From: Coriobacteriia bacterium
Lineage (GTDB): Bacteria; Actinomycetota; Coriobacteriia; Anaerosomatales; Anaerosomataceae
Reading direction: 5' to 3'
Assembly: GCA_016938395.1 (NCBI GenBank)
Contig: JAFGUS010000045.1
Span: 1 to 24,604 of the forward strand
DNA: 24,604 bases
In this document: one piece after another, positions 6,089 through 24,604 of the stretch
How the letters are laid out: every line of letters begins with the position of its first letter
How positions within the stretch are numbered: the first letter of the stretch is position 1
Notes under the pieces: generated by a model
Database searches by the model: none
Told to the model about the DNA's origin: nothing
The model's input: only the letters and a program-made list of their open reading frames with translations
Made by a program: the position numbers and the translations under genes

Positions 6089-6098
6089 CTGGTGCTAC

Positions 6099-7898
6099 CT
6101 ACTTCCCGGGGACCGTGATGCCCATCGCAGCAGCGGTCTCGGGGACGAACGAGTACACCGAGTCGAGCTCCTCGTCGGTCACTGTGAACACGACGTCGTG
6201 CGGCGGGAGCTTGTCCTGATAGAAGAACGCGGGCAGCCGGTCATCGGCCGCTGTGAAGCCCGCTGCTTCGTTGTAGAGATGCTCCATTGTCAGGACTTCC
6301 TTGCCGAGACCCATGAGCTCGTCGGCACCCCAGGTCTTGCCGGTGTGCGCGGTCATCATCTCGCCGATGGCATCGAAGGCCGCCGGGATGTCGAGCACCG
6401 CGAACGCGACGAAGATGCACAGCCCGAGGGAGTCGAGCATGGCCGTGGCGATCTGCAGGCCCTGCGAGAGTTCCGCCTGGCCCTCCGGCTTCAATGGATC
6501 GACCGTGCCGCCGACGCCGAGCACGTTGGCCGTGATCGTGTAGCCGGCGGTGTGGTCCGCGCCCATCGTCGACGTGGCATACGTCACGCCGATGCCCTGG
6601 ATCGGCCGTGGGTCGTACGCGGGCAGGCCCTGGTGCTTGACCACCGGGATGCGCGCCACGCCGAACGCCTTGCCGGTCGCCTCCGCACCATCTCCGAGGA
6701 TCTTGCCGAGCTCGGAGCCCTTGCGGATCTCCTTGAGCGCTGCCATGGATGCATCGGCGTCGCCGAAGGCAATCTTCCCGGAGTCCATGTACACACCGAG
6801 CATCACGCCCGTCTCGATGGTATCGAGGCCGAGATCGCCGCACTCGCGATCAAGGTCGGCCACGGCGTCCATGTCCGAGATGCCGCAGTTGGCGCCGAGC
6901 GACCAGGCACTCTCGTACTCAGGTCCCTTCGTCTTGTAGTGACCGTCCTTGTCCACGTAATACCGCGAGCACTGGATGACACAGCCCGCGTGGCAGCCGT
7001 GCTTCACATTGCCGCCGCGCTTAACGGTGATCTCGCGCATCGTCTCGCCCGAGATGCCGTCGACGCCCTCGAAGCGACCGAGCGCGAAGTTGTTGGTCGG
7101 GTAGCCGCCCGCCTCGTTGATGATGTTTGCGAGGATGTTCGTGCCGTACGTGGGCAGACCCTGTCCGGTGACTGGGTGCTCACGGAGGGCCGCGCCGAAC
7201 TTCTTGGATGCCGCGTTGAAGGCCCCCTTGTCGGCGTGCTCGGTGGCGCTGAGTCCCTCGTAGAAGATCGCGATGAGCTTCAGGCCTTTGCTCGCCATGA
7301 CGGCGCCCAAGCCGCCGCGGCCTGCGAACCGGTTGGGGTGACCCTCGGGATCGGTGACCGCGATGCCGGCTGCCTTCATCCCCATCTCACCAGCGGGGCC
7401 GGTGATGATGAACGATGTCTTCTCGCTCATCCGATGCTCGGCGGGCTCGATCCCCTTGGCTACGGCTGCGGTCTCATAGATGCCGAGGCCGGCGAGGTCG
7501 TGCCGGTGGACGATGTCGACATTCCCGTCCGGGAACAGCCGCAGCACGTACCTGCCAAGCTTGTCCTCGGGCTCGCCCTCGATGATGATCGCCGCAACGT
7601 CCAGGCGGGCGAGTGCGTGCGCGGCCGTGCCGCCGGAGTTCGACTCCTTGATGCCGCCGGTGAGCGGGCTCTTTGCGCCGAATGACAGGCGGCCCGTGTT
7701 GGGTCCTGTCGTGCCGCCGAGCAAACCCGGAGCGATGACGAGCTTGTTCTCGGGGCCGAGCGGATCGGCGTCGGGCGGGACTTCGGTGAACACGATCGCG
7801 TCGGTCAGCGCGCGTCCCCCGTAGCCGACCCACTTGTCGGGTACCGGCTCCTTGGTGATGGACAGGTCGCTCATGTTGACGCGCAAAATCGTCCGCAT
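6099..7898 (-). CDS. aor: Aldehyde:ferredoxin oxidoreductase (tungsten/molybdenum bis-pyranopterin enzyme)
   Basis: This enzyme oxidises aldehydes to acids with ferredoxin, or the reverse, in the anaerobic cytoplasm. AAGGAGG at 7908-7914 (minus strand) lies 9 nt before the ATG at 7898, so the 31 residues further upstream in the frame are excluded. The 599-residue length is standard. N-terminal motifs are VGYGGRALTDAI, DPLGPENKLVIAPGLLGGTTGP, GGIKESNSGG and FAGRGGLGAVMASKGLK. The [4Fe-4S] ligands are C302, C306, C310 and C494. The first three are spaced CX3CX3C, not the CX2CX3C of the Pyrococcus enzyme. Cofactor-binding DSLGLCIF (489-496) is present, and DLGLDT (355-360) is the counterpart of the first pterin motif. 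moaD and a ThiF-like gene follow in the same operon. Confidence 0.93.
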   Translation of the reverse strand: MRTILRVNMSDLSITKEPVPDKWVGYGGRALTDAIVFTEVPPDADPLGPENKLVIAPGLLGGTTGPNTGRLSFGAKSPLTGGIKESNSGGTAAHALARLDVAAIIIEGEPEDKLGRYVLRLFPDGNVDIVHRHDLAGLGIYETAAVAKGIEPAEHRMSEKTSFIITGPAGEMGMKAAGIAVTDPEGHPNRFAGRGGLGAVMASKGLKLIAIFYEGLSATEHADKGAFNAASKKFGAALREHPVTGQGLPTYGTNILANIINEAGGYPTNNFALGRFEGVDGISGETMREITVKRGGNVKHGCHAGCVIQCSRYYVDKDGHYKTKGPEYESAWSLGANCGISDMDAVADLDRECGDLGLDTIETGVMLGVYMDSGKIAFGDADASMAALKEIRKGSELGKILGDGAEATGKAFGVARIPVVKHQGLPAYDPRPIQGIGVTYATSTMGADHTAGYTITANVLGVGGTVDPLKPEGQAELSQGLQIATAMLDSLGLCIFVAFAVLDIPAAFDAIGEMMTAHTGKTWGADELMGLGKEVLTMEHLYNEAAGFTAADDRLPAFFYQDKLPPHDVVFTVTDEELDSVYSFVPETAAAMGITVPGK

Positions 7899-7930
7899 AC
7901 GCTGCTCCCTCCTTAGTGCATGGACAGACA

Positions 7931-7962
7931 GGACCGTTTGCTGGGGTCCACTATATAAATAT
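7931..7962 (-). promoter_or_regulatory. candidate aor promoter with small inverted repeat
   Basis: An AT-only stretch (7952-7962) stands out in this GC-rich sequence, 54 nt before the aor start, and offers TATATA on the minus strand as a -10. GGACC (7931-7935) and GGTCC (7945-7949) form an inverted repeat just downstream, near the expected start of transcription, and could be an operator. No clear -35 is visible. The 287-nt divergent gap 7899-8185 holds this element and the panB promoter, and I see no gene in it. Confidence 0.4.
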
Positions 7963-8112
7963 GCCCACCTCGTGCCGGTATGTCTACGCAAGCGGGGCTA
8001 ATCCGTCGAGCGGCGCTCTGATGGCGCTGACCGGGGCGCTCTGGCGCTGGAGGACGCACACCGGACTTCCGCGCCAGGTGCACTGAGGCGCGCACGGTCA
8101 CCGCGCGCGCGA

Positions 8113-8121
8113 TGCTATACT
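8113..8121 (+). promoter_or_regulatory. extended -10 promoter of panB
   Basis: TGCTATACT is an extended -10 (TGn plus TATACT), 64 nt before the panB start. There is no good -35, as is common for extended -10 promoters. It would drive the five-gene pan-nad operon. Confidence 0.5.
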
Positions 8122-8185
8122 CGTCACCCGTCCGAGGGGTGGCCTGGACCGTATGCGGCCGGGACCGCCGGGAAGGAGGCGCACT

Positions 8186-9070
8186 GTGAGTGCAGTGCCC
8201 AGTGGAGCCGCGTCCGCGCGCGTGAGGACCGCCACGTTGGCGGCCATGAAGTCTGCCGGCGAGCGCATCGTCATGATCACCGCGTACGACACGCCCGGCG
8301 CCCGTCTCGCGGATGCGGCCGGTGTCGACGCCATCCTGGTCGGTGACTCTCTCGGCATGACCGTGCTCGGGTACGGGAGCACGCTCCCGGTCACGATGGA
8401 CGACATGGTGCGCGCCACCGCCGCCGTATCCCGTGGCAGTGCGCGTGCCCTCGTGATCGCGGACATGCCATTCATGAGCTACCAGGTAAGCCGCGAGGCA
8501 GCGCTTGCCAACGCTGGTCGGCTGCTCGCAGAGGCCGGTGCTCACGCCGTGAAGCTCGAGGGCGGCGCCACGGTGGCACCGCTCGTGGAGGCCATGGTGG
8601 CCGCCGGAATCCCCGTCATGGGTCACGTGGGCCTCACGCCGCAGTCGGTGAACGTCTTCGGTGGCTACAAGGTGCAGGGTCGCGACGTCACCGGAGCCCT
8701 CACGCTCGTCGAGGACTGCCGTGCGCTGCAGGCTGCGGGCGCGTTCTCCGTCGTGCTCGAGCTCGTGCCAGCCGAACTGGCCGCGCTCGTCACCGCCGAG
8801 CTCGGCATCCCGACCATCGGCATCGGCGCGGGCGCGGGGTGCGACGGCCAGGTGCAGGTGTTCCACGACATCCTCGGGCTGGGCGAGTTCGCGCCGCGTC
8901 ACGCCAAGCGCTACGCCGAAGTGGGCGTTGCGATCACGTCGGCTGTGGCCGAGTACGCGCGGGAAGTGCGGGACGGCGTGTTCCCCGCCGAGGAGAACCT
9001 TACGCACATGGAGCCCTCGGTGGCGGCCGAGATCGGCCGCGCCCTGCCCCGTGCGGGCCGGGAGTCGTGA
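8186..9070 (+). CDS. panB: 3-methyl-2-oxobutanoate hydroxymethyltransferase
   Basis: This enzyme transfers a hydroxymethyl group from methylene-tetrahydrofolate to alpha-ketoisovalerate, giving ketopantoate for pantothenate and CoA. The start is GTG 8186, with GGAAGGAGG at 8171-8179. The protein has 294 residues. Motifs are MITAYDTPGARLADAAGVDAI, VGDSLGMTVLGY (metal-binding Asp), VTMDDM, DMPFMSYQ, AVKLEGG, the MGHVGLTPQS loop and IGIGAGAGCDGQVQV near the active site. It is the first gene of panB-panC-nadA-nadB-nadC and ends one base before panC. The folate operon of this window would supply its cofactor. Confidence 0.96.
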   Translation: MSAVPSGAASARVRTATLAAMKSAGERIVMITAYDTPGARLADAAGVDAILVGDSLGMTVLGYGSTLPVTMDDMVRATAAVSRGSARALVIADMPFMSYQVSREAALANAGRLLAEAGAHAVKLEGGATVAPLVEAMVAAGIPVMGHVGLTPQSVNVFGGYKVQGRDVTGALTLVEDCRALQAAGAFSVVLELVPAELAALVTAELGIPTIGIGAGAGCDGQVQVFHDILGLGEFAPRHAKRYAEVGVAITSAVAEYAREVRDGVFPAEENLTHMEPSVAAEIGRALPRAGRES

Positions 9071-9071
9071 C

Positions 9072-9923
9072 ATGGAGACCCTCGTCTCCAAAGACGAAGT
9101 CCGCCGCGCGGTTGCCGAGGCGCGCGCGGTAGGCCAGCGCATCGCACTCGTGCCGACCATGGGCGCGCTTCACGAGGGCCACCTGTCGCTCGTTCGGGCC
9201 GCCCACGAGCGTGCCGAGTATGTGGTGGTCTCCGTGTTCGTGAACCCCACGCAGTTCGGGCCGGGTGAGGACTTCGAAGCGTACCCACGCGACCTTGAGG
9301 GGGATCTCGAGCTTCTCGAGGCCGAGGGCGTGGCGCTCGTTTTCGCTCCTGCCACCGCGACGATGTACGATCCTGGCGCCACGGTGATCGTAGACCCCGG
9401 TCCGCTCGGCGACGTTCTTGAAGGCGCCATCCGGCCGACCCACTTTCGCGGCGTATGCACGGTGGTGGCGAAGCTCTTCGGCATCGTGGAACCCGACCTC
9501 GCGTTCTTCGGCGAGAAGGACTTCCAGCAGCTCGCGATCGTGCGCACCATGGTCCGCGATCTCGACCTGCCGGTTCGCGTGGTGGGGTGCCCCACGATCC
9601 GCGAGCCGGATGGGCTTGCCATGTCGAGCCGCAACGTGTATCTCTCACCCGATGAGCGTGCAGCCGCCACGGTGCTCTATCGTGCGCTCCGCGCGGCCGA
9701 GGCACGCATGCTCGCGGGTGAGCGTGACGCCCGCGCTCTGGTGGAGGTCATGCGAGCCAAGATCGCCACGGAGCCGCTGGCGGTGCCCGACTACACCGAG
9801 GTGGCCGACGCCGTCACGCTCGCGCCACTCGACGCTCTCGACAGCTCGCCTGCCCGCGCACTCGTCGCAGCGCGCCTTGGCAGCACGCGTCTCATCGACA
9901 ACCTGGCGCTGGAGGTGGGGTAG
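9072..9923 (+). CDS. panC: Pantothenate synthetase
   Basis: This enzyme joins pantoate and beta-alanine with ATP. ATG 9072 is one base after the panB stop and has GGGAG at 9060-9064. A longer open frame upstream lies inside panB and is not used. The 283-residue protein has the HIGH-type site VPTMGALHEGHLSLV (about 30-44), FVNPTQFGPGEDF, THFRGVCTVV, the FGEKDFQQL loop and the KMSKS-like MSSRNVYL. All core catalytic motifs are intact. panD, which makes beta-alanine, is not in the window. The next gene, nadA, begins directly after the stop codon. Confidence 0.96.
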   Translation: METLVSKDEVRRAVAEARAVGQRIALVPTMGALHEGHLSLVRAAHERAEYVVVSVFVNPTQFGPGEDFEAYPRDLEGDLELLEAEGVALVFAPATATMYDPGATVIVDPGPLGDVLEGAIRPTHFRGVCTVVAKLFGIVEPDLAFFGEKDFQQLAIVRTMVRDLDLPVRVVGCPTIREPDGLAMSSRNVYLSPDERAAATVLYRALRAAEARMLAGERDARALVEVMRAKIATEPLAVPDYTEVADAVTLAPLDALDSSPARALVAARLGSTRLIDNLALEVG

Positions 9924-10841
9924 ATGGTCGAGGTTCGCGCGGCGCTTGCCGCCGAGGTCCGGGAGCTCGCCCGCGAGCGGGACGCCGTGATCTTTGCGCA
10001 CAACTACCAGCGCGCGGAGGTCCAGCAGGTTGCCGACATCGTGGGGGACTCGCTCGAACTCGCGCGTCGCGCCTCCGAGGCGGACGCCGCGGTCATCGTG
10101 CTCGCAGGCGTGCGTTTCATGGCTGAGACCGCGGCTATCCTTGCCACCGGCAAGACGGTGCTGCTTCCGCACACGGGAGCCGGGTGTCCGATGGCCGACA
10201 TGATCACCGCCGCGCATCTCTCCGACTGGAAGGCCGAGTTTCCCGGCGTGCCGGTTGTGATGTACGTGAACTCCTCGGCAGAGGTCAAAGCGCTCACCGA
10301 CGTCTGCTGCACGTCAGCGAACGCGGTGGAGGTCGTCCGCTCCCTCGGCTCGCCGCGGGTGCTCTTCGCCCCCGATCGCAACCTCGGCGCGTGGGTGGCG
10401 GCGCAACTCCCCGAGATCGAGGTCATCGCCTGGAACGGGTACTGTCCCGTGCACGATGAAGTGACGCTCGAGCGCGTGCGCGACGCGCAGGCGCTGCACC
10501 CCGATGCGGTCGTCATCGCGCACCCCGAGTGCCGTCCGGAGGTGAGCGCGGCGGCCGACGCGGTGCTCTCCACGAGCCAGATGATGCGGTACGCCGCCGA
10601 GGCTGAGGCGTCCGAGTTCATCGTGGTGACCGAGGCCGGGCTGCTGCACGGCTTGCAGGCCGCCGCGCCGGAGAAGCGCTTCTACCATCTCGCGCCGGCG
10701 ATGATCTGCGCCGACATGAAGCTTACGCGCCTCGAGCACGTCCGCGATGCGCTCGCCGACCTCTCCGGTGAGGTGGTCGTGCCGGCCGCGGTAGCCGACG
10801 CGGCCCGCGCGTCGCTCGAGCGCATGACGGCGATCGGCTAG
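9924..10841 (+). CDS. nadA: Quinolinate synthase
   Basis: This [4Fe-4S] enzyme condenses iminoaspartate (from NadB) with dihydroxyacetone phosphate to give quinolinate, an oxygen-sensitive step of de novo NAD synthesis. The ATG follows the panC stop without a gap, with GGAGG at 9911-9915. The 305-residue protein has AHNYQRAEVQQVADIVGDS near the start. Three conserved cluster cysteines are at C88 (GAGCPMADM), C174 (NGYCPVH) and C262 (MICADMK), matching the spacing of the short NadA type. HPEC and TEAGLLH are also present. Confidence 0.96.
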   Translation: MVEVRAALAAEVRELARERDAVIFAHNYQRAEVQQVADIVGDSLELARRASEADAAVIVLAGVRFMAETAAILATGKTVLLPHTGAGCPMADMITAAHLSDWKAEFPGVPVVMYVNSSAEVKALTDVCCTSANAVEVVRSLGSPRVLFAPDRNLGAWVAAQLPEIEVIAWNGYCPVHDEVTLERVRDAQALHPDAVVIAHPECRPEVSAAADAVLSTSQMMRYAAEAEASEFIVVTEAGLLHGLQAAAPEKRFYHLAPAMICADMKLTRLEHVRDALADLSGEVVVPAAVADAARASLERMTAIG

Positions 10842-10874
10842 GCGCGCACGGTGGGCGTCCGAGGAGGGGGTGCG

Positions 10875-12563
10875 GTGCTCAAAGAGTCCTCGGCAGGGGC
10901 CCTTGCGAGCGCTGCGATCCCGCCCGCGCTCGACACCCGCTATGTCGTCGGCTTCGACACCGACACGCTCCCCTCGGAGCACGCCGATGTGCTCGTCGTC
11001 GGTTCGGGCATCGCGGGACTCACGGCGGCGCTCCACGCATCAAGGCTCGGGAGTGTCACGCTCGTGACCAAGTCCGAGGTCACCGACGCCAACACGTGGT
11101 ACGCGCAGGGTGGCATCGCCGGCGCGGTGGGCGAGGCCGACTCGGTCGAGCTCCACCTCGCCGACACGCTCGTGGTGGGGCAGGGACTCTGCGATCCGGA
11201 CGTGGTGCGCGCGGTGGTGGGCGAGGCCGCCGATGCGCTCGGAGAGCTCGAGGCGCTCGGCGTGAGATTCGACCGCGCCGCCTCCGGCGTGCTCGCGCTT
11301 GCGCGTGAGGGCGGCCACAGTCTGCCGAGGGTGCTCCACTCGGGAGACGCCACCGGCGCCGAGGTGCAGAACACGCTCTCGGCGGTGGTGCGGCAGGCAG
11401 ATGGGATCCGGCTCGTCGAGGACGCGTTCCTCGTGGACCTGCTGACCGACGGCGACCGCTGCGTGGGCGCGCTCGTCATGGACCGCGGCAGCCACGCGCT
11501 CATCGCACTTCACGCCGATGCTGTCGTTCTGGCGACGGGCGGGTCCGGACAGATGTACCGCGTGACCACCAACCCCCTTGTGGCAACGGGTGACGGCGTG
11601 GCGGCGGCCTGGCGCGCCGGTGCCGAGATCGCCGACATGGAGTTCGTGCAGTTCCATCCCACCGCGCTGGACAGCGAGGCGACGCCCAAATTCCTCATCA
11701 CCGAGGCGCTCCGCGGCGAGGGCGCCTACCTGCTCGACTGCGACCTGGAGCGCTTCATGCCCGCCCTCCATCCGCTCGCCGAACTTGCCCCTCGCGACGT
11801 GGTGAGCCGTGAGATCGAGAAGGTGATGCACCGCTGCGGTCGGCCCAACGTCTGGCTCGACGCGCGGCACCTCGGCGCCGCGTTCCTCGAGAGTCGGTTC
11901 CCCACCATCACCGCGGGTTGTGCCGAGGCGGGATACGAGCTCTCGCGTGATCTGGTGCCGGTGGCTCCGGCGGCGCACTACCTCATCGGCGGGGTGCGGA
12001 CCGACATCGACGGCCGTTCGTCGCTGCCGGGGCTCTACGCGGCGGGTGAGTGTTCGGCCTCGGGCCTGCACGGAGCCAACCGTCTTGCGAGTAACTCGCT
12101 CTTGGAGGGGCTCGTCTTCTCGCGACGCATCGTACGGGCGCTTGCCGACGAGCGCGTTCGCACGCGTCCGGTCCGGGTGGTGGCGAGGGCGCCGGAGCCC
12201 GGTACCGCTGACGCAGCCGCCATCCGGGCCGCCCTCCAGGTGACGATGAGCCATCACGGCGCGGTCACCCGTTCGGCGCACGGCCTCGCCGGCGCCGCGG
12301 AGGCTGTCGTTGAACTCGCCGGCAGCGTTGCTGGCGACGGCCCGCACGCGATCGAGACGCGCAACCTCCTGGTAAACGCGGCCCTCACGGTTGCATCCGC
12401 GCTTGTGCGCGAGGAGAGCCGGGGCACGCACTTCCGCAGCGATCGTCCCGCCCGGGATGACGAACACTGGAGGAGCCACATCGTGTGGCGACGCGGCGGT
12501 GAGCTGCGGCTTGAGTCGGTCATCACTGACGAGACCATCCCGCATCCGGAGGGAAACCGATGA
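10875..12563 (+). CDS. nadB: L-aspartate oxidase
   Basis: This FAD enzyme oxidises L-aspartate to iminoaspartate and in anaerobes often uses fumarate as acceptor. GTG 10875 is chosen because GAGGAGG (10861-10867) lies 7 nt upstream; a GTG at 10851 is also in frame but has no site. The 562-residue protein has a 40-residue N-terminal arm before the FAD fold. Motifs are VVGSGIAGLTAAL (FAD), NTWYAQGGIAGAV, HSGDATGAEVQNTL, QFHPTAL, ITEALRGEGAYLL, the catalytic PRDVVSREIE region and GLHGANRLASNSLLEGLVF. The C-terminal helical domain is complete. The end overlaps nadC (ATGA). Confidence 0.95.
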   Translation: MLKESSAGALASAAIPPALDTRYVVGFDTDTLPSEHADVLVVGSGIAGLTAALHASRLGSVTLVTKSEVTDANTWYAQGGIAGAVGEADSVELHLADTLVVGQGLCDPDVVRAVVGEAADALGELEALGVRFDRAASGVLALAREGGHSLPRVLHSGDATGAEVQNTLSAVVRQADGIRLVEDAFLVDLLTDGDRCVGALVMDRGSHALIALHADAVVLATGGSGQMYRVTTNPLVATGDGVAAAWRAGAEIADMEFVQFHPTALDSEATPKFLITEALRGEGAYLLDCDLERFMPALHPLAELAPRDVVSREIEKVMHRCGRPNVWLDARHLGAAFLESRFPTITAGCAEAGYELSRDLVPVAPAAHYLIGGVRTDIDGRSSLPGLYAAGECSASGLHGANRLASNSLLEGLVFSRRIVRALADERVRTRPVRVVARAPEPGTADAAAIRAALQVTMSHHGAVTRSAHGLAGAAEAVVELAGSVAGDGPHAIETRNLLVNAALTVASALVREESRGTHFRSDRPARDDEHWRSHIVWRRGGELRLESVITDETIPHPEGNR

Positions 12564-16484: not shown

Positions 16485-16997
16485 ATGCCGGCACGCATGG
16501 GAGACACGGTCGCTGTCGACTACGAGGGCCGCTTGGAAGACGGGACGGTCTTCGATTCGAGCGCAGGCAGGGCGCCGCTGCTTTTCACCCTCGGGGCCGG
16601 TCACGTCCTGCCGATGTTCGAAGCGGCCGTAGTGGGCCTCGAGCCGGGCGAGATGGTGACGGTCACCATTCCCGCCGAGGAAGCGTACGGCATCCACATC
16701 GCCGAGGCCGTGCAGATGGTCCCCGTCGACGTTTTCGGCGAGGGCGAACCGCCCATCGGCGGTGAGTTCAACGTCTTCGGCGAAGACGGCCAGAACTACA
16801 CCGGACGGGTCATCAGCATCAGTGAGGACCTGGTGAACGTCACTGTCGACTTCAATCACCCGCTCGCCGGTCACACACTCACCTATGACATAACACTCAA
16901 CGAGATCGTTCCGGAGCAGCCCAAGTCGGTAGGCGGGGCGCAGGCTGCAGCTTCTCCCGCTACTGATGGCGCCGCTTCGGCAGAGGCGGATTCATAA
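16485..16997 (+). CDS. slyD: SlyD-like FKBP-type peptidyl-prolyl isomerase
   Basis: This enzyme catalyses cis-trans proline isomerisation and acts as a chaperone in the cytoplasm; no signal peptide is visible. ATG 16485 follows GGGAGGGG at 16473-16480. The 170-residue product starts with the FKBP half-domain VDYEGRLEDGTVFDSS (about 11-26). GHVLPMFEAAVVGLEPGE comes next, then the IF (insert-in-flap) domain after AEEAYG (about 65-125), and the NHPLAGHTLTYDI return (about 123-135). This order is that of SlyD. The tail is Ala/Ser-rich and lacks the His-rich nickel-binding end of Escherichia coli SlyD, so a hydrogenase nickel role is less likely. Confidence 0.9.
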   Translation: MPARMGDTVAVDYEGRLEDGTVFDSSAGRAPLLFTLGAGHVLPMFEAAVVGLEPGEMVTVTIPAEEAYGIHIAEAVQMVPVDVFGEGEPPIGGEFNVFGEDGQNYTGRVISISEDLVNVTVDFNHPLAGHTLTYDITLNEIVPEQPKSVGGAQAAASPATDGAASAEADS

Positions 16998-17004: not shown

Positions 17005-17033
17005 TTGACACGCCCACAGGGCGCCGATAAGGT
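17005..17033 (+). promoter_or_regulatory. promoter of the cytochrome operon, with dyad in spacer
   Basis: A consensus TTGACA (17005-17010), a 17-nt spacer and TAAGGT (17028-17033) form the best sigma-70 promoter in the window besides the one at 24426. The spacer holds a perfect palindrome, CGCCC-ACA-GGGCG (17011-17023), a candidate regulator site. Transcription would start near 17040. Confidence 0.65.
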
Positions 17034-17039
17034 GAAAGC

Positions 17040-17145
17040 GGTCACGCGACCCGAACACGAACCGCCGGTGTCGGTCGCTTCAAACGAGTATGCGAGCGCA
17101 TGGGTGCCGGCACACCCAGTCGAGCGAGCGAGGTCGGTCGTGACC
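17040..17145 (+). ncRNA. candidate structured leader RNA of the cytochrome operon
   Basis: From about the predicted first transcribed base, 17040-17051 (GGTCACGCGACC) pairs with 17132-17145 over 12 bp with one 2-nt bulge. The enclosed 80 nt can form three hairpins: 17052-17058 with 17068-17073 (one bulged A), 17076-17079 with 17095-17098, and 17101-17106 with 17113-17118. A separate stem with a GTAT loop (17159-17174) followed by GTTTT lies between it and the first gene. It matches no riboswitch class I know. High GC content makes chance folding a real alternative. The gap 16998-17192 holds this and the promoter and no convincing gene. Confidence 0.3.
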
Positions 17146-17192
17146 CTGCAGCAGTGGTCTGGGCGTATGCCCGGCTCCGTTTTGGGTAGGGG

Positions 17193-18044
17193 GTGGCGGC
17201 GATTCTCCTCGCGCAAGTGAACGTATGGATGGACGCGGTGTTTGTCCTGCTGTTCATCGGTGTGTGGCTGTTCGTGCTGTTCCATTTCTCCATCAGCATC
17301 CCCAAGGGACGCTTCCGCAAGAAGTGGATCGAGGGCAAGTGGCCCGAGCACGACCACCTTCCGGTCTTCCTGCCCAAGCTCATGCACTGGATCCATCTGC
17401 TGTGCATGCTCGCTCTGGCGTTCAGCGGTCTCTACATCCGGTTCCCGTTCTTCGATGGCGGACGGACACCGATGCGATGGGTCCACTACATCGCGATGAC
17501 GATCGTCGGCATCAACTACCTCTGGCGTCTGTGGTACGCGTTCTTTTCCAAGAACCGCGACTACAAGAAGTTCGTCGTCACTAAGCAAGATCTCCAGTCC
17601 ACGGTCGGCGTTCTCGCGTACTACGGCTACTTCTCGGACAGTAAGCCGCACGTGGCCGAGTACAACGTCATGCAGAAGATGTCGTATCTGCTCTTCGCCG
17701 TGCTCATGATGGCCCAGGGATTCACCGGCCTCTCGCTGCTCACGCAGGAACTGCCCATGATCGGCCTGAGCATGCGGGAGATCCTCGTGGGCTGGTGGCT
17801 CGGCCCGCTCGTGGGTGACATCGCAATCGCGGGCGCCTGGATGCGCGTGCTGCACTACATGATCAACTGGCTCTTCATCATCATGACCGTGGTGCACTTC
17901 TACCTTGCCGTGAACGAGGACTTCCTCATCGGCCTCGACTTCTTCGGCTTCAAGAAGTACCCCAAGGAGAAGCTCGTGTCCCACGGACACGGTCACGCGG
18001 AGTCTCACGCGCCGGCTGCCGCGGCGGCCGCCGAGGCAGAATAG
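17193..18044 (+). CDS. HydC/FdnI-like membrane dihaem cytochrome b
   Basis: This is a b-type cytochrome of the kind that links the membrane quinone pool to periplasmic redox partners. The GTG at 17193 gives 283 residues. The Shine-Dalgarno is poor, and GTG 17217 or ATG 17229 are alternatives. Membrane helices lie at about 14-32, 62-81, 97-117, 161-182 and 215-240. Candidate haem ligands are H65/H68 (MHWIH), H98 (RWVHY), H221 (LHYMINW) and H235 (VVHFYL), the pattern of formate dehydrogenase and Ni,Fe-hydrogenase b subunits. The tail (about 263-272) is His-rich. No hydrogenase or dehydrogenase subunit is nearby; three multihaem cytochromes c follow within 8 nt, so they are its likely partners. 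Whether it oxidises or reduces quinol is unknown. Confidence 0.85.
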   Translation: MAAILLAQVNVWMDAVFVLLFIGVWLFVLFHFSISIPKGRFRKKWIEGKWPEHDHLPVFLPKLMHWIHLLCMLALAFSGLYIRFPFFDGGRTPMRWVHYIAMTIVGINYLWRLWYAFFSKNRDYKKFVVTKQDLQSTVGVLAYYGYFSDSKPHVAEYNVMQKMSYLLFAVLMMAQGFTGLSLLTQELPMIGLSMREILVGWWLGPLVGDIAIAGAWMRVLHYMINWLFIIMTVVHFYLAVNEDFLIGLDFFGFKKYPKEKLVSHGHGHAESHAPAAAAAAEAE

Positions 18045-18052
18045 GAGGCCGT

Positions 18053-18928
18053 ATGGGCTCCCGCATGAGCCGAACGATCATAGCGGCGGCCGTGCTGGCG
18101 ATCGCGCTTGCGGCGCCGGTTGCGGCCTATGGTCAGGGCGTGCAGCCCTCGGTCTCTCCGACCGCGCCCTACGAGCTCGACTTCACGCTGCCCACGGAGT
18201 CCAAAGCGGGCTGCCAGGTCTGCCACGGCGACCCGGCCCTCGTGCGCATCCGCGACGGCGTGATCATGAGTTACTACATCGACGACGCAGTGGTGGCCGA
18301 CTCGGCGCACGCCGACCAGCAGTGCGTGGGCTGCCACATCGACTTCAACTACAAGGCTCCCCACGGCGACGGCGACTGGGCGAACACGGCCAAGGGCGCC
18401 TGCCGCAACTGCCACGAGGAGCAGTCGGCGGCGTTCGGGCTCGGCGTGCACCGCGCCACCGTCTCCAACGGCGACTCGGAGACCGAGGAGCCAAAGCCGC
18501 TCTGCGGTGACTGTCACGGTTCGCATGAGATCCTCATGATCACCGACAACCCCGCCGGGGCGGCGGCGATCCATGCCGACGGCTGGGAGGTCTGCGGCCG
18601 CTGCCACGAGGACTACTGGGACAGCTACGACGACTACTACCACGGAGCCGCGTACAAGCGTGGCGCCGAGGACGCCCCATCCTGTTGGGACTGCCACGGC
18701 TGGCACGACATCCTCCCGTCGAGTGATCGTGGCTCGATGGTGCACGAGTCACACCTCGTGGAGACCTGCGGGCAGGAGGGCTGCCACGTCGGCGTGGATG
18801 AGAAGTACACGGAGTACGCGGTGTTCATCCATGGCCGTGAGGAGATTTCGGCGGCCAACCCGCTCGTCTCGCTCATCCGCTCGGTGCTCGACGCGGTCGG
18901 TGGCCTGTTCGGCGGCGGGGATGCGTAG
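18053..18928 (+). CDS. Exported heptahaem cytochrome c
   Basis: A 291-residue exported cytochrome with AGGAGG 4 nt before ATG 18053. A signal peptide covers about 1-28, perhaps uncleaved. Six CX2CH motifs lie at 54, 91, 117, 151, 181 and 211. A seventh, spaced CX4CH, lies at 239 (CGQEGCH). Features such as DSAHADQQCVGCH, LCGDCHGSHEI and YYHGAAYKRG...CWDCHGWHDI belong to the cytochrome c3-like SVHG/CHGSHDI type that often accompanies membrane cytochrome b. It lies 8 nt after the cytochrome b gene, so it probably takes electrons from it. The last 25 residues are hydrophobic and glycine-rich and could rest on the membrane. The C-terminal half of the next gene is its paralogue. Confidence 0.88.
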   Translation: MGSRMSRTIIAAAVLAIALAAPVAAYGQGVQPSVSPTAPYELDFTLPTESKAGCQVCHGDPALVRIRDGVIMSYYIDDAVVADSAHADQQCVGCHIDFNYKAPHGDGDWANTAKGACRNCHEEQSAAFGLGVHRATVSNGDSETEEPKPLCGDCHGSHEILMITDNPAGAAAIHADGWEVCGRCHEDYWDSYDDYYHGAAYKRGAEDAPSCWDCHGWHDILPSSDRGSMVHESHLVETCGQEGCHVGVDEKYTEYAVFIHGREEISAANPLVSLIRSVLDAVGGLFGGGDA

Positions 18929-18973
18929 GGATCCTCGCACGCTCGGACGGCAGAAGGCAGGTTGGACAGGGGT

Positions 18974-20221
18974 ATGAGCAAGCGACTCCAGGCGTTCGCC
19001 GGCACGGGCGCTTTTCGGTGGTGGATCGTGGCAGCGTTCGCCGCGGTCGCCGTCGTTGCGCCGGCGTTCGCCACGTCGCTCACCGTCGAGTTCGGCGGGG
19101 ATGTCCATCCCGGGAAGTGCCTTCCCTGTCACGCGGACTACGCCACGGCCGAAAGCCCCGACTATGCCTTCACGCATGGTGGTCACCTGACGCACCAATG
19201 CACCACCTGTCATCCTCGATTCCCGCACACAGCGAGCGGCACGGATGTGCCGGTGATGCGGGACTGCTTCAACTGTCATGGCCTCTACCACGGGCCGCAG
19301 GGTGTGATTGCCGGGGCCGAGTGCGAGTCGTGCCACGGCGATGCAGTCGAGAGTCTTCGGCCCGTGTCGCACAGGTTCGACTGGTCGGGCGTTGCGCACG
19401 TCGAGCCCGCGCTCGCCGGTCTCACGACCGAGTGCTCGATGTGCCATGAGCAGTCCGCGTGCGATAGCTGCCACGTGGCGGAAGGCGTGGCGTGGTCGCC
19501 GGCGGAACCGATGGTCTACGACGCCGGTAGCGGGTGCCTCGTGTGCCATGGCAGCCCGAACCTGCAGAAGAACACCCCGGACGGTCTCGTCTCGTTCCAT
19601 GTGACCGGGCTCGAGGACTCGGCACATGCGGACCTCACGTGCCCGCAGTGCCACATCGACTTCGGCTACGCCGAACCGGCCGCGCCCACCAAGCTCTGGT
19701 ACGTGAACGTCGGCATGGCCTGCGCGGAGGGTGTGTGTCACGATCACGACGACCAGGTCGAGGCCTACGCGGCCTCCGTTCACGGTGTAGCCCTGGCTGC
19801 GGGAGACTATGGCTCGGCAACGTGCGGTGCGTGTCACGGCGGGCACGACATCGCCCGTCTCGATACCGATGAGGCCAACACCGCGTTACACTTCTCCAGT
19901 GAAGCGATGTGCGCGCGATGCCATAAGGACCGGTGGGACAATTACAACGACGCGTATCACGGAGCAGCGTACAAACGGGGTGCCGATGACGCCCCCTCGT
20001 GTTGGGATTGCCATCCCGCGCACGACGCGCTACCGTCGTCTGATCCCAAGTCGTCGACACACCCCGCCCGCCTTGCAGCCACGTGCGCTTCGTGCCACCA
20101 ACACGCTGACGCCACGTCGTCCTTCGCGGCCGGTGCGGCGGATACGATCCATCAGCAGGAGGATCTGCGTGCCGAGAACCCGCTCCACAGACTGCTATCT
20201 ACGTTGCCGGGGAGTTGGTAG
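18974..20221 (+). CDS. Exported 13-haem cytochrome c with two modules
   Basis: ATG 18974 is preferred; TTG 18962 is also in frame. The 415-residue product has a signal peptide or anchor at about 16-34. Twelve CX2CH motifs start at 49, 76, 98, 117, 154, 163, 188, 223, 284, 313, 343 and 371, and one CX4CH at 250 (CAEGVCH). Residues of about 48-168 form a hexahaem module of FTHGGHLTHQCTTCH type that also occurs twice in the next gene. Residues of about 185-415 are a copy of the preceding heptahaem protein; AYHGAAYKRGADDAPSCWDCH is almost identical there. The gene therefore looks like a fusion of both cytochrome types, suited to bridge its two neighbours in an electron chain. No catalytic site is recognised. 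Confidence 0.88.
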   Translation: MSKRLQAFAGTGAFRWWIVAAFAAVAVVAPAFATSLTVEFGGDVHPGKCLPCHADYATAESPDYAFTHGGHLTHQCTTCHPRFPHTASGTDVPVMRDCFNCHGLYHGPQGVIAGAECESCHGDAVESLRPVSHRFDWSGVAHVEPALAGLTTECSMCHEQSACDSCHVAEGVAWSPAEPMVYDAGSGCLVCHGSPNLQKNTPDGLVSFHVTGLEDSAHADLTCPQCHIDFGYAEPAAPTKLWYVNVGMACAEGVCHDHDDQVEAYAASVHGVALAAGDYGSATCGACHGGHDIARLDTDEANTALHFSSEAMCARCHKDRWDNYNDAYHGAAYKRGADDAPSCWDCHPAHDALPSSDPKSSTHPARLAATCASCHQHADATSSFAAGAADTIHQQEDLRAENPLHRLLSTLPGSW

Positions 20222-20227
20222 CCGCTC

Positions 20228-21820
20228 ATGACTCGGCGCGCACGCGGACGACTGACGCTCACCGCACTGGTGGCCATCGCGGCTGCCGTTGTGGTGCTGC
20301 TCGCGTATCCGCTCGGCGCCGAGAGCCAGGAGCCGACCACGATCCTCGCGAGCGGACCCGCATCGACGGCCGCGTGCAGTTACTGCCATCCCACGCTTGG
20401 CGCTACAGACCGCGCGGATCTCGTCTTCGACCACGCGCCGCACATCCTCGTGCAGTGCATCGCATGCCACCGCGGTCCCGCGCACGCGGAGGGCAAGACG
20501 GCCACGCCGCCGATGGACACCTGCTTCACCTGTCACGGGCTGACGCACGGCCCGATGGGAGAGCTCGCCTCCGGCGAGTGCCGCAGCTGCCATCCAGAGC
20601 CCACCGAGCTGCGCCCGGCCACGCACATCTCGATCTGGGCCGAGGCACCGCATGCGCGGGCGTCTGCGAAAGACGGTGTGAACCGCTGCATGATGTGCCA
20701 CGAGGCTGCCGCTGACTGCGACGCGTGCCACCGCGATCAGGAGGTGGACGTCGGGCCGATGCCCGCGTTCTACCTGAGCACGATCCCTGTTGAGACCACC
20801 GAGGCCACCGTGACCATCGACCCCGACGCGCCGGTCACGGTCTCGCAGTGTGCGTACTGCCATGCCGACATCGACGACTTCGAGGTAGAGGGGCTCGTGT
20901 TCGGCCACGCGCCGCACCTCGAGCGTGCGTATCGCTGCGAGGCGTGCCATCAGGTCTTCCCGCACGGTCCCGACGGCACGGAGCGCATCGAGATGCGTTC
21001 GTGTTACCGGTGCCACAGTCTCATCCACGACGGGCAGGGCGAGGTGGCCGAGAGCAACTGCGAGAAGTGCCACACCGAAGACTTCGAACTCGTGCCCGCC
21101 GATCACACCGTCGCCTTCCTCTCGGGCGAGCACAACGAGCCCGCTCTGGCCGACGCGGCATACTGTTCGCAGTGCCACACCTCGGAAAGCTGTATCGAGT
21201 GCCACAACGGTGGCGTGGAGCTGGCGAACGGACTCATGGGCGAGAAGGTCATTCCCGAGGATCACACCAAGCCCGAGTGGCTGGAGTCGCACGGCGGGCT
21301 GTACCTCGCGCAGGAGGGCCTCTGCGCGGTTTGCCACACGCCGGAGAGCTGCAACCAGTGCCACATCACCACCATGCCGCACCCGGTCACCTGGCTCACC
21401 GACCACGCCAACATGAACGGCTCGCTCACCAACGACTGCGGTGTGTGCCACACCGACCGCGAGTTCTGCCAGGACTGCCACCACGACTCGGTGCGTTCCG
21501 TGGCACTCATCCCCGAGAACTGCGTGGAGTGCCACGAGGAGATGAATACCGAGCCCGCCACGGCGATCCAGGTAGCCGGCCTCGCCGAGCACGCGGTGCA
21601 CTTCAACGTCGCGGAGAAGAAGGGCGAGCCCTACTACTGCGACGACTGCCACATCGGTTTTGGCGCCGGCGGCATCCACGTGGTGAACCCGGCCACCGGC
21701 CCGCACGACATGCGCATCTGCTATGAGTGCCACGGCGCGCTCGACTTCCAGAACGTGCTGATCGCCGAGTACCGCGGAGCCGAACTCTGTCTCCGCTGCC
21801 ACACCAACCTCAACTTCTAG
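20228..21820 (+). CDS. Exported 20-haem cytochrome c
   Basis: This 530-residue protein carries 20 CX2CH motifs, about one per 26 residues. It starts 6 nt after the previous stop; the best Shine-Dalgarno (GGGGAG, 20209-20214) is rather far away. A signal sequence or membrane anchor is at about 9-31. Two hexahaem modules lie at about 50-168 and 208-325, each with an FxHAPH...CxxCH c7-like core, a CHGLTHG or CHSLIHD segment and a close haem pair at the end. The last 200 residues hold eight more motifs, including pairs only 4-5 residues apart (CAVCHTPESCNQCH). No CX15CH or CXXCK catalytic site is seen, so electron transport or storage is more likely than nitrite or sulfite reduction. Periplasmic or surface placement is inferred. 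Confidence 0.88.
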   Translation: MTRRARGRLTLTALVAIAAAVVVLLAYPLGAESQEPTTILASGPASTAACSYCHPTLGATDRADLVFDHAPHILVQCIACHRGPAHAEGKTATPPMDTCFTCHGLTHGPMGELASGECRSCHPEPTELRPATHISIWAEAPHARASAKDGVNRCMMCHEAAADCDACHRDQEVDVGPMPAFYLSTIPVETTEATVTIDPDAPVTVSQCAYCHADIDDFEVEGLVFGHAPHLERAYRCEACHQVFPHGPDGTERIEMRSCYRCHSLIHDGQGEVAESNCEKCHTEDFELVPADHTVAFLSGEHNEPALADAAYCSQCHTSESCIECHNGGVELANGLMGEKVIPEDHTKPEWLESHGGLYLAQEGLCAVCHTPESCNQCHITTMPHPVTWLTDHANMNGSLTNDCGVCHTDREFCQDCHHDSVRSVALIPENCVECHEEMNTEPATAIQVAGLAEHAVHFNVAEKKGEPYYCDDCHIGFGAGGIHVVNPATGPHDMRICYECHGALDFQNVLIAEYRGAELCLRCHTNLNF

Positions 21821-21843
21821 ATCGATCTGCAAAGGTAGGCCTG

Positions 21844-22851
21844 ATGACGGCACTTTCATCTCGAAACGGCTGGCTCGACTGGGCCGTACGTATCGTCGCC
21901 CTGCTTGTGATCGGCGCGCTCCTCTATCTGGCGTACACCGTCTGGCAGGGCCAGCGGCAGGCGCAGGGGAGTTCGCTCGCAACGCGGGCGATCGCCAACC
22001 TCGAGCAGGCGGTGCGGGACAATCCCGAGAACCCCAACGTCTACATCCTCCTCGGAGACGCGTACCGCGACACCGGACGCCCCGCGGACGCCATCGAGCA
22101 GTACCAGAAGGCGCTCGAGCTCGAGGGCGACCACCCCGTGGCACTCAGCGGCCTCGCACTCGTGGCGATGCAGCAGGAGGAGTGGCGCACCGCCGAGGGG
22201 TACTGGCAACAAGCCGTCGACGTGCTGAGCAAGAACCAGTTCGCGTCGCAGGACCTGCGTCTCGAGAAGGCCTACTACTACTACGGCACGGTGCTCATCA
22301 AGGTGGGCGAGTACGAGGATGCCATCGCGTACCTCAAGGAGGCGCTCCGCATCCGCCGGGGCGATGCCGACACCCACTACGCGCTGTCGGTGGCCTACCG
22401 TGAGGCGGGCTCGCTCAACAACCAGCGCAAGTCGCTCGAAGCGGCGCTGCTCTTCGTGCCCACGATGCCCGAGGCCAACTACGACCTCGGCCTCATCCTG
22501 CTTGCCGAGGGCGATGAGGCGTCGGCAGCCGAGCTCTTCCGCCGGTCCGTGGACAACGCGCCCGGCCGTACCGAGCCGCTGGACGAACTTATGGCGCTCG
22601 GCCCGTTTGAAGATCGGTACGAAGCTGCTGCCGCGCTCGAGGACAGCAATCCTGAAGAGGCGCTCTACGAGGCGCGCATTGCCGTGTCTCTGAATCCCGA
22701 GAACGTCGATGCGCTGCGGCTCACGGCGCGGCTCTGGGAAGAAGCCGGGGAGACCGAAGCGGCGCGCACGGTGTGGGAGCGCGTCCTCGCGCTCGTGCCT
22801 GATGATCCTGAGGCAACCGAGGCCGTTGCGGCCATCGATGACGAGTCCTGA
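21844..22851 (+). CDS. Membrane-anchored TPR protein of the cytochrome operon
   Basis: ATG 21844 (AAAGG about 8 nt upstream) gives 335 residues; the longer open frame upstream is only the end of the cytochrome gene. One membrane helix at about 14-32 anchors the protein. Tetratricopeptide repeats follow at about 62-95 (NPNVYILLGDAYRDTGRP), 97-130, 142-172 (YYYYGTVLIKVGEYEDAIAYLKEAL), 176-206, 210-240 and 272-320. They probably face outwards. TPR proteins with this layout (NrfG, CycH/CcmI) help attach haem to apocytochromes, so a role in maturing or assembling the cytochromes encoded just upstream is plausible but not shown. No CcmF-like haem lyase lies in the window. Confidence 0.82.
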   Translation: MTALSSRNGWLDWAVRIVALLVIGALLYLAYTVWQGQRQAQGSSLATRAIANLEQAVRDNPENPNVYILLGDAYRDTGRPADAIEQYQKALELEGDHPVALSGLALVAMQQEEWRTAEGYWQQAVDVLSKNQFASQDLRLEKAYYYYGTVLIKVGEYEDAIAYLKEALRIRRGDADTHYALSVAYREAGSLNNQRKSLEAALLFVPTMPEANYDLGLILLAEGDEASAAELFRRSVDNAPGRTEPLDELMALGPFEDRYEAAAALEDSNPEEALYEARIAVSLNPENVDALRLTARLWEEAGETEAARTVWERVLALVPDDPEATEAVAAIDDES

Positions 22852-22871
22852 CCCGTAAGGGAGCGTGACCT

Positions 22872-24416
22872 GTGACCGAACGTACCACCAGCCAGATTAC
22901 CGAGTACGCGGCGGAGCGCCGCAAGAAGGGCCGCGTGCGCAAGATCGTGTTGCTCGTCGCGCTCGTCGTCCTTCTCATGCTGCTCATCTGGTCGGCACTC
23001 TACTACGCCGCCAACCGCCGGTTGCCGTTCCCGCCCGTGGACTCCATCGCCGGGGAGACCGTGCTCGTGCCGGAGTTCCTGTACGCGATCTCCGGCCCCG
23101 AGGGCGCCGACTCGCTTCAGAAGCCCGTCGGTGTCGCCGTGAGCGAGGACGGCTGGGTGTTCACGGTCGACGCGTTCTCGCGCACGATACGCTCGTACGA
23201 CACCGACGGTGAGTACCGGTTCAGCTTCAACAGCATCGTGAGCGACAAGGGTGCCCAGCTGCAGCTTCCTCAGCGCGTCACGATCGGCCCTGACGGCAAC
23301 GTGTGGGTCACCGACCGGCGCCTGCGGGGCATCTTCGTCTTCGATCCGGAGGATGGGTCGTTCGTGCGCGAGTTCATCCCCGCAAGCGACATCACCGAGA
23401 CGTGGGGCCCGGTTGCGCTCGCCTTCAATGCCGAGGGCGACCTGTACGTCGCCGACCTCGGCCTGAGCCAAGAGCACCGCATCGTCGCGTTCGACAGCGA
23501 GGGCAACGAGATCGCGCGCTGGGGCACCACGGTGCCCGTCTCCCAGATGACGCAGTCGCCGGGCGGTTTCTACTACCCCAACGGCATCGCGTTCTCCAGC
23601 GAAGGCGACGTCTTCGTCTCCGACATGAACAACCATCGCGTGCAGGTGTTCACGCCCGAAGGCGAGTTCAAGTACCTCATCCGCACGTCCGGCTCGCCGC
23701 TCGGCATGGTCATCGATCCCACGCAGCGCCTCTACGTGGTGGACCCGTTCGCGCACGCGATCGACGTCTACGAGCTCGAGGGCGAGCGGATCGTCGGCTT
23801 CGGCGGCCCCGGCCTCGCGCTTGGGCGGTTCCGCTTCCCGAGTGATATCGCGCTCGACGAGCGCGGGCGCATCTTCGTGAGCGATCGCGAGAACAACCAG
23901 GTGCAGGTGTGGGGTTGGCCGAGCGGCATCATCCCGCCCATCGTGATCCCGGAGGAGCCGCAGGACTGGGCGCTCTGTCTCTCACCGCTCCTGCTCCTGC
24001 TCATCCCGCTGCTGCGCCGCCGCACGGCGTTCGTCGTGACCGCCGACTTCATCGAGGCGATGCGCATCGCCGAAGCCGTGCCGAAGATGGACGACCGCAA
24101 GTTCAGGTGGCTCGTTACCGAGCCGCTGTGGGAGCAGTACGCAGACCAGATCTCAGACGGCGTGCACTTCGAGGAACTGCTGCATGCCGAGACGTACTCG
24201 CGGACCGACGTGGCCGATCTCATAGAGAAGACCGGCGTGGACGAGGCGACGGCGATCGTGCTCACGATGGCCGAGCGCGCGGGGCGGCTCGCAACCGAGG
24301 ATCCGGTGCTCGGCAGCGCCGCGAGCGCACTTGAGATCACGGTGGTCGGTCGTGAACGGTTCCTGCGGGAATACGCCGCTCGCCGCCGCTCCGAGACCGC
24401 TCGGCGCACAGAGTAG
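22872..24416 (+). CDS. NHL beta-propeller membrane protein with C-terminal PIN-like domain
   Basis: GTG 22872 has AAGGGAG 8 nt upstream and gives 514 residues. A basic N-terminus is followed by a membrane helix (about 24-46), then a six-bladed NHL-type propeller (about 60-350). Its repeats show QKPVGVAVSEDGWVFTVD, LPQRVTIGPDGNVWVTDRR, YPNGIAFSSEGDVFVSDMNN and FPSDIALDERGRIFVSDREN. A second membrane helix lies at about 366-382. The last 130 residues are on the cytoplasmic side and look PIN-like: TADFIEAM (391-398), E435/E440, DEATAIVLTMAERAG (457-471) and LATEDPVLGSAASALEITVVG (473-493), with acidic residues where PIN nucleases bind metal. The propeller probably binds cytochromes or the cell envelope. 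The PIN assignment is an inference, and nuclease activity is unproven. Confidence 0.78.
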   Translation: MTERTTSQITEYAAERRKKGRVRKIVLLVALVVLLMLLIWSALYYAANRRLPFPPVDSIAGETVLVPEFLYAISGPEGADSLQKPVGVAVSEDGWVFTVDAFSRTIRSYDTDGEYRFSFNSIVSDKGAQLQLPQRVTIGPDGNVWVTDRRLRGIFVFDPEDGSFVREFIPASDITETWGPVALAFNAEGDLYVADLGLSQEHRIVAFDSEGNEIARWGTTVPVSQMTQSPGGFYYPNGIAFSSEGDVFVSDMNNHRVQVFTPEGEFKYLIRTSGSPLGMVIDPTQRLYVVDPFAHAIDVYELEGERIVGFGGPGLALGRFRFPSDIALDERGRIFVSDRENNQVQVWGWPSGIIPPIVIPEEPQDWALCLSPLLLLLIPLLRRRTAFVVTADFIEAMRIAEAVPKMDDRKFRWLVTEPLWEQYADQISDGVHFEELLHAETYSRTDVADLIEKTGVDEATAIVLTMAERAGRLATEDPVLGSAASALEITVVGRERFLREYAARRRSETARRTE

Positions 24417-24425
24417 GGGATACGA

Positions 24426-24454
24426 TTGACACCGGCATACACTGCCGATAGGCT
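24426..24454 (+). promoter_or_regulatory. strong promoter downstream of the cytochrome operon
   Basis: A consensus TTGACA (24426-24431), a 17-nt spacer and TAGGCT (24449-24454) start 9 nt after the NHL gene stop codon. The spacing equals that of the promoter at 17005. It points to a gene starting just beyond the window. Confidence 0.6.
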
Positions 24455-24467: not shown

Positions 24468-24522
24468 TTGTAACTAGGGTTACAAACTTACGTGGTAGCA
24501 CGATTGGCCACGTGGGTTACAA
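24468..24522. repeat. inverted and direct GTTACAA repeats in the final intergenic region
   Basis: TTGTAAC (24468-24474) and GTTACAA (24479-24485) form a perfect 7-bp inverted repeat with a TAGG loop. GGGTTACAA recurs at 24477-24485 and 24514-24522, 37 bp apart. Between them ACGTGG (24490-24495) and CCACGT (24508-24513) form another inverted repeat. The stretch 24417-24604 has no gene. The array just after the TTGACA promoter looks like operator sites or a folded leader. GAGGAA near 24592-24597 is a probable ribosome binding site for a gene starting at or just after the window end. Confidence 0.55.
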
Positions 24523-24604
24523 TGGAATAGCGTCTCCGAGCTTGCGGGCCTACAGCGTTCGCGCCAGGGCCCCCAAGCCGATAGGGTGTCAGAGGAAACG
24601 ACGA

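Follow-up and report, generated by a model that had tools for sequence, protein, structure and literature searches.

Towards its end, the 24,604-nucleotide stretch of contig JAFGUS010000045.1 analysed here (the window; assembly GCA_016938395.1, from a Coriobacteriia bacterium of the family Anaerosomataceae) carries six co-directional genes for a cytochrome b, three multihaem cytochromes c, a tetratricopeptide repeat (TPR) protein and an NHL protein. The locus is genuine and conserved in Anaerosomatales-type Coriobacteriia, a little-known group from soil and groundwater, and most likely encodes a multihaem conduit coupled to an enzyme, with the assembly of its products into one structure being predicted from sequence. 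The six genes make up the first third of a block spanning about 24 kb, which in relatives continues with genes for a formate dehydrogenase or, in a paralogous version, for a [NiFe] hydrogenase.

The six-gene array and its haem-binding units

A preliminary description of the window had placed one promoter ahead of six co-directional genes, and both were found: six open reading frames (ORFs) lie on one strand at 17193-24416, with intergenic gaps of 8, 45, 6, 23 and 20 nt (the ATG at 18974 being taken as the start of the third ORF), and the promoter-like site preceding them is kept in all five close relatives aligned, its -10 element reading TATGGT in two of these. The operon proposed there holds as a six-gene array and fails as a stand-alone unit, since in relatives an FKBP gene adjoins it upstream and enzyme genes follow it downstream. 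The features of this part of the window are as follows.

16485..16997, + strand: FKBP-type peptidyl-prolyl isomerase, the locus's first gene in the window's family (PF00254, E=2e-18; adjoins the block upstream in 13/13 same-family loci)
17005..17033, + strand: promoter-like site of the six-gene unit, TTGACA-N17-TAAGGT
17193..18044, + strand: cytochrome b of the HydC/FdnI type (b561/HydC), probably with two haems, start codon uncertain (PF01292, E=4e-21)
18053..18928, + strand: 7-haem cytochrome c, 6 CxxCH and 1 CX4CH, one 7-haem unit (Pfam multihaem c families, motif count)
18974..20221, + strand: 13-haem cytochrome c, 12 CxxCH and 1 CX4CH, a 6-haem unit and a 7-haem unit (motif count, sequence comparison)
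20228..21820, + strand: 20-haem cytochrome c, two 6-haem units and an 8-haem part (20 CxxCH)
21844..22851, + strand: TPR protein with one N-terminal hydrophobic helix (Pfam TPR families; hydrophobic segment at residues 15-33)
22872..24416, + strand: NHL protein with an N-terminal helix, a six-bladed propeller, a second hydrophobic region and a C-terminal domain with a weak PIN-like signal
24426..24454, + strand: promoter-like site of the next transcription unit, TTGACA-N17-TAGGCT (sequence read by eye)
24468..24485, + strand: palindrome TTGTAAC-N4-GTTACAA, a putative operator
24522..24604, + strand: 5' portion of a molybdenum/tungsten cofactor riboswitch, RF01055, truncated at the window end (covariance score)

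The 40 c-type haem motifs that had been claimed, divided 7, 13 and 20, are borne out. Strict CxxCH motifs number 6, 12 and 20 in the three cytochromes c, and one CX4CH motif in each of the first two completes the count (38 CxxCH and 2 CX4CH in total, all 38 CxxCH in one frame). A chance origin of the motifs was rejected: shuffled versions of the proteins contained 0.04-0.24 motifs on average and at most 2 (1000 shuffles). The predicted haem numbers have a modular basis, with 7 corresponding to one 7-haem unit, 13 to 6 + 7 and 20 to 6 + 6 + 8, because the halves and units concerned share 34-40% identity: the C-terminal half of the 13-haem protein matches the 7-haem protein (40% identity, E=2e-51), its N-terminal half matches the 6-haem units of the 20-haem protein (37-38%), and the two 6-haem units match each other (34%, E=9e-23). 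Among complete copies in relatives, 20 haem motifs were counted in 27/27, 13 in 19/23 (12 in the remainder) and 7 in 22/25 (6 in the remainder); these counts take CX3CH and CX4CH as haem motifs and leave out a split 13-haem ORF (L082), contig-cut copies and genes unlisted by the ORF caller. The cytochrome b ORF matches PF01292 in the manner of the dihaem gamma subunit of FdnGHI-type formate dehydrogenase, its haem number being predicted, and its histidines 65, 68, 98, 221 and 235 are invariant in 34/34 alignment rows.

Pfam matched TPR and NHL families in the window proteins. The sixth protein had been described as NHL/PIN; the NHL part of that name is confirmed by Pfam, and behind the PIN part stands a single weak profile match, in which the C-terminal domain compared with local PIN proteins reached 68% over the last 49 columns only, against 98.8% for a PIN-versus-PIN control. 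This C-terminal piece gave no Pfam match and no convincing match among PDB sequences (the best was an MCM8 helicase fragment, E=0.021), and the fold-search matches of the NHL protein cover the propeller only, not this domain.

The 5' leader at 17030-17192, ahead of the cytochrome b gene, is in large part conserved in five relatives and contains GGTCACGCGACCC and GGGTGCCGGCACACCC blocks. It matches no Rfam family above the cut-off; one match at E=2.6 was dismissed.

Conservation of the block and its enzyme genes

We searched 41 relatives, comprising 25 genomes of the same family and 16 of other families. The order of the six genes, whose conservation had been put forward as a check on the preliminary description, is kept on one contig in 22/41 (13 same-family and 9 other-family genomes). 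Each of the 13 same-family genomes (13/25) has the FKBP gene before the six and a formate dehydrogenase after them, and in G024, a further member of the family, the contig stops inside cytochrome b or directly behind it. Parts of the module are carried by 13/16 genomes of the other families. Overall, cytochrome genes of the module occur in 26/41 genomes, with a contig-cut trace in one more, and four loci (G037_C46, G026_C28, G030_C144 and G035_C83) have the TPR-NHL-enzyme set without adjacent 7-, 13- or 20-haem genes.

Five close relatives have, 471-480 bases after the NHL gene, an exported molybdopterin enzyme split by a TGA codon at its active site, which reads HQAR[IL]-TGA-HSSTVAGL in 25/25 loci. 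The alpha subunit of the relatives has a Tat-like leader (read by eye), and its best NCBIfam match is TIGR01553 (formate dehydrogenase-N alpha), below that family's cut-off for the piece searched. It is followed by an iron-sulfur beta subunit and a 6-haem cytochrome, often with a membrane protein and a lipoprotein-like protein; further on come a second NHL protein (several loci), a propeller protein and, where the contig is long enough, a 14-haem cytochrome. The single beta subunit scanned contains Fer4 domains, and 10/10 beta subunits end in a hydrophobic segment. One scanned protein of each kind showed cell-wall-binding repeats in the propeller protein, and MtrC/MtrF-like and FG-GAP matches in the 14-haem cytochrome (13 CxxCH and 1 CX4CH). 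In the paralogous version, the module is followed by small and large [NiFe] hydrogenase subunits (with a Tat-like leader) and then by a 6-haem cytochrome. No such segment is present in the hydrogenase small subunit (0/6), which thus seems to lack an anchor, as if its acceptor were a soluble cytochrome.

In the window's organism the next gene is very probably formate dehydrogenase, because the window ends in a cofactor riboswitch that precedes formate dehydrogenase in relatives. Its last 83 bases match RF01055 with 41.6 bits against a cut-off of 36 (model positions 1-96 of 135); a full copy lies between the NHL and formate dehydrogenase genes in L033 (78.5 bits), and full copies precede formate dehydrogenase in 9/10 further loci scanned, the tenth, L101, having none above the cut-off. 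One unrelated minus-strand Rfam match in the riboswitch scan (E=9.8, below the cut-off) was dismissed. The preliminary statement that no dehydrogenase or hydrogenase subunit is present is thus correct within the window only and does not extend to the block, which in relatives includes a selenocysteine-type formate dehydrogenase or a [NiFe] hydrogenase; the window is cut inside the next transcription unit, and the absence is therefore an edge effect. As support for selenocysteine in the enzyme, a search for the selenocysteine tRNA is weak: it scored more than 60 bits in 32/41 genomes, yet it also gave a signal in all 14 control genomes (above the cut-off in 5), and it scored 47-54 bits in G013, G017, G025 and G035, which have the TGA-type enzyme.

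The palindrome TTGTAAC-N4-GTTACAA is exact in 17/38 relatives' contigs, always just after the NHL gene. Scans of eight whole genomes found it as a single site in five, at the gap between NHL and enzyme genes (before formate dehydrogenase or hydrogenase), and found no site in G020 and G022, where the block has been lost, and one site elsewhere in G004, which has no block. Cofactor riboswitches also occur in contigs with hydrogenase-type modules (L081:10600-10738 and L092:3175-3301); the one in L081 lies at the head of a set of ABC-transporter genes that includes a PBP-type binding protein.

Phylogenetic trees separate the accessory proteins by enzyme type. The NHL tree has 44 rows, of which seven are second-NHL proteins. 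It groups the loci with formate dehydrogenase in a clade of 25 rows (support 100/99), among them the window and one contig-cut locus, and those with hydrogenase in a separate clade of 12 rows (support 92/95). The gene next after NHL is formate dehydrogenase in 23/23 loci of the first clade with a visible next gene, and hydrogenase in 7/8 loci of the second; in four more of the second, the contig ends first. The TPR phylogeny, built as a quick tree only, divides by enzyme in the same way as the NHL tree, whereas neither the 20-haem tree, which also takes in 13 rows of 13-haem proteins, nor the cytochrome b tree splits by enzyme type. Because the TPR and NHL trees divide by enzyme and the cytochrome trees do not, the phylogenies suggest that TPR and NHL serve the enzyme and that the cytochromes are a shared trunk. 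Three contigs (L103, L107 and L109) have a hydrogenase-type TPR-NHL set after a lipoprotein-like gene, which in L103 is that of a formate dehydrogenase cluster; from these arrays, both enzymes may therefore share one cytochrome set.

Comparison of gene neighbourhoods indicates that two relatives have lost the block in its entirety, as a single unit. What remains in G020 is an in-frame fusion of the first 60 FKBP codons with the end of the 14-haem gene, and everything between is gone; the resulting chimera (L150:9711-11318, + strand), left by the deletion, keeps five CxxCH motifs. In G022, FKBP adjoins BioY, whereas its congener G012 has about 24 kb between the two.

A profile search with the 20-haem protein found 39 loci in named genomes and at least 127 proteins at E<=1e-20 (7995 candidates scored). 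Among the best 120 of these 127 proteins, 10 name an organism: nine are given as Coriobacteriia, Coriobacteriales, Anaerosomatales or 'Actinobacteria bacterium', and one is a metagenome-assembled genome (MAG) titled Aeromicrobium. The matches include a 20-haem protein, P0008, that is 95% identical to the one of the window and is encoded on a 355-kb contig. The named records found with the gene are likewise titled Coriobacteriia, Coriobacteriales, Anaerosomatales, Actinobacteria or Actinomycetota, apart from the one Aeromicrobium-titled MAG. The latter (L111, JADIIM010000056.1, titled Aeromicrobium sp.) carries the block and is probably the same MAG as G013, which is placed in the window's family; its title is probably wrong.

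Elsewhere in the window, Tad/Flp pilus-type genes (a T2SSF protein and a TadE/G-like protein) lie at 22-2482 on the + strand. The + strand at 2566-12563 carries folate genes (GTP cyclohydrolase I, dihydropteroate synthase type, HPPK), followed by PanB, NadA and a NadB-like FAD protein (pantothenate and NAD). On the - strand at 6099-7991 lies an aldehyde ferredoxin oxidoreductase (PF02730, PF01314), normally a tungsten enzyme, with a ThiF-type adenylyltransferase beside it at 5206-5832.

Known systems and earlier sightings

The block shares features with several characterised systems. With formate dehydrogenase-N (FdnGHI) it has in common an FdnI-family, probably dihaem cytochrome b and, as seen in relatives, a predicted selenocysteine-containing alpha subunit and a beta subunit with a putative C-terminal anchor; here, however, cytochrome b lies at least five genes upstream of alpha, and genes around it encode 46 c-haem motifs (7, 13, 20 and 6). 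CbcL of Geobacter, to which the preliminary description had likened the system, also combines a HydC/FdnI-type b domain with multihaem c, but the likeness does not extend to its build: CbcL is one fused protein, whereas here the b and c parts are separate proteins (the window cytochrome b has no CxxCH, and the b and c domains are on separate ORFs) and an enzyme is attached. The Qrc and Hmc complexes of sulfate reducers similarly connect a periplasmic hydrogenase or formate dehydrogenase to membrane carriers via multihaem c, but they differ from the block, in which no NrfD-type subunit was found among the proteins scanned and wall-binding and 14-haem proteins are present. As to an MtrCAB or porin-cytochrome conduit, a Pfam scan of the six window proteins found no porin family among them.

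Parts of the block have been noticed before. The Coriobacteriaceae bacterium EMTCatB1 (genome announcement PMC5347234) dominates a thermophilic biocathode together with a methanogen. Its formate dehydrogenase genes 1c0408 and 1c0407 and its cytochrome gene 1c0406 rank in the top 10% of transcripts, 1c0407 belonging as well to the closed-circuit set, whose expression is higher under that condition (PMC7943316). In our set EMTCatB1 is genome G006, which has one alpha match at E<=1e-60 and a 6-haem gene directly after beta; because the gene order and the single alpha match agree, 1c0408-1c0406 are very probably genes of the block. The accessible part of PMC7943316 treats the enzyme and the 6-haem gene and does not discuss the six upstream genes.

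The Fe(III) reducer Parvivirga hydrogeniphila has a cytochrome cluster, MCL4079376-90, with a formate dehydrogenase (MCL4079382-3) in its middle, which was suggested to determine Fe(III) reduction (PMC9686372). The organism is described as reducing Fe(III) obligately, with H2 or formate (PMC9686372, PMC12730654), these two being its sole donors (PMC12730654), and a further report calls an Anaerosomatales isolate obligately hydrogenotrophic, citing the same paper, PMC9686372 (PMC11708057). The cluster is possibly the same block, an identity drawn from gene numbers: it spans 15 consecutive numbers, and the block has 15 genes if the TGA-split alpha is counted twice. As a difference, the part of PMC9686372 that is accessible makes no mention of TPR, NHL, a hydrogenase version or conservation.

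The preliminary description had not recognised the set as a known one; this has to be qualified for its parts, given what PMC7943316 and PMC9686372 contain in their accessible portions, and stands, in the literature searched, for the six genes together. The prior art is close, but the order-wide layout, the six-gene set, the 7/13/20 pattern and the enzyme swap are not described in the open-access literature searched (subscription papers and supplements lying outside it).

Proposed function and its alternatives

We hypothesize, with moderate confidence, that the locus encodes a multihaem conduit fed by formate or H2, linked to the quinone pool via cytochrome b and probably used for extracellular electron transfer, in a presumably outward direction. 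At the membrane's outer face, the enzyme would oxidise formate or H2, and the electrons would enter the 6-haem cytochrome and the 7-, 13- and 20-haem proteins spanning the thick wall, until wall-bound cytochromes hand them to Fe(III) or an electrode. The chain would be tied to menaquinone by cytochrome b, the TPR and NHL proteins would be enzyme-specific adaptors or assembly factors, and on a cathode the electrons may flow the other way. Judging from their taxonomy, the cells should be monoderm. The quinone-linked multihaem conduit of a single-membrane cell put forward in the preliminary description fits the findings, the taxa with the 20-haem gene being Coriobacteriia-type; its direction and localisation, like the physical assembly of the conduit, remain predictions. 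A more elaborate version, which we offer tentatively and think somewhat doubtful, is a plug-in cassette: a conserved 40-haem trunk of repeated 6- and 7-haem units, to which a formate dehydrogenase or a [NiFe] hydrogenase would be coupled by its own TPR-NHL pair, with electrons passing from the membrane's outer face straight through the wall of the single-membrane cell, the quinone pool as a side branch, and the whole reversible for electrode-driven reduction of CO2 to formate.

Several observations weigh against the enzyme-fed outward conduit. The block is absent from 11/25 same-family genomes, including the near-complete, same-genus G002 and G004, and the nearest genome, G001 (100% identity over 1893 bases), has a contig end at window position 15992 and no copy elsewhere. 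Two module loci, G031_C71 and G032_C225, are without the 13-haem gene and an adjacent cytochrome b, and the hydrogenase-type NHL gene of G032_C286 is followed by an ABC transporter. The enzyme gene expected in the window's organism would lie beyond the window end, out of sight, and the two halves of the block can probably be expressed apart, the enzyme genes having their own promoter-like site, palindrome and riboswitch. For EMTCatB1, the text of PMC7943316 names five cytochrome genes in the top 10%; the 7-, 13- and 20-haem genes, whose place we take from gene numbers, are missing from these five, and this speaks against simple co-expression. The Parvivirga cluster is said by its authors to be without genes for iron-sulfur and anchor subunits (PMC9686372), in contrast to the block, and the 20-haem profile search gave no Parvivirga-titled record. 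Finally, surface localisation and direction are predicted, and the structure model of the 20-haem protein is poor (mean pLDDT 60.8, too low for a fold search or for haem distances).

Other routes for the electrons were considered. The multihaem proteins could carry the enzyme's electrons inward only, to cytochrome b, which would reduce menaquinone as in Qrc and Hmc, none leaving the cell. The HydC/FdnI type of the cytochrome b, normally quinone-reducing, agrees with such a route, as does the hydrogenase small subunit without a membrane anchor (6/6), a trait of enzymes that feed soluble cytochromes. We nevertheless judge it unlikely, for it has no need of a wall-binding propeller protein or an MtrC/MtrF-like 14-haem cytochrome, and 40 haems would go far beyond the needs of quinone reduction. 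Still less probable, to our reading, is a conduit working in the cathodic direction, taking up electrons from outside while the enzyme makes formate or H2: the formate dehydrogenase beta gene of EMTCatB1 is in the closed-circuit set mentioned above, and direct electron uptake was proposed by the authors (PMC7943316), but the cultured member of the group is an Fe(III) reducer with H2 or formate as donor, which requires outward flow (PMC9686372, PMC12730654).

That the locus encodes a menaquinol oxidase of the CbcL or ImcH kind, sending electrons out with the enzyme genes as mere neighbours, seems to us very improbable. It would account for the union of a b-type cytochrome and multihaem proteins in one unit, and for the related cytochrome b found away from the module in seven genomes of the order and, by tree only, in an eighth (G040); six such stray loci have as neighbours UvrB and metal-type ATPases, a helicase, a ferredoxin-type protein and TypA/BipA, one showing no family match. 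Yet enzyme genes follow NHL in 30/31 loci with a visible next gene, the TPR and NHL proteins track the enzyme type, and the block is lost as a unit, all of which speaks against this reading.

The passage of electrons through the thick wall of single-membrane bacteria is poorly understood, and the block provides a defined part list for it across one order. Its two enzyme versions make it testable whether the TPR and NHL proteins are partners of the enzyme and the b, 7-, 13- and 20-haem cytochromes the trunk, and a bacterium known from a published biocathode, perhaps together with an obligate iron reducer, can now be tied to one locus.

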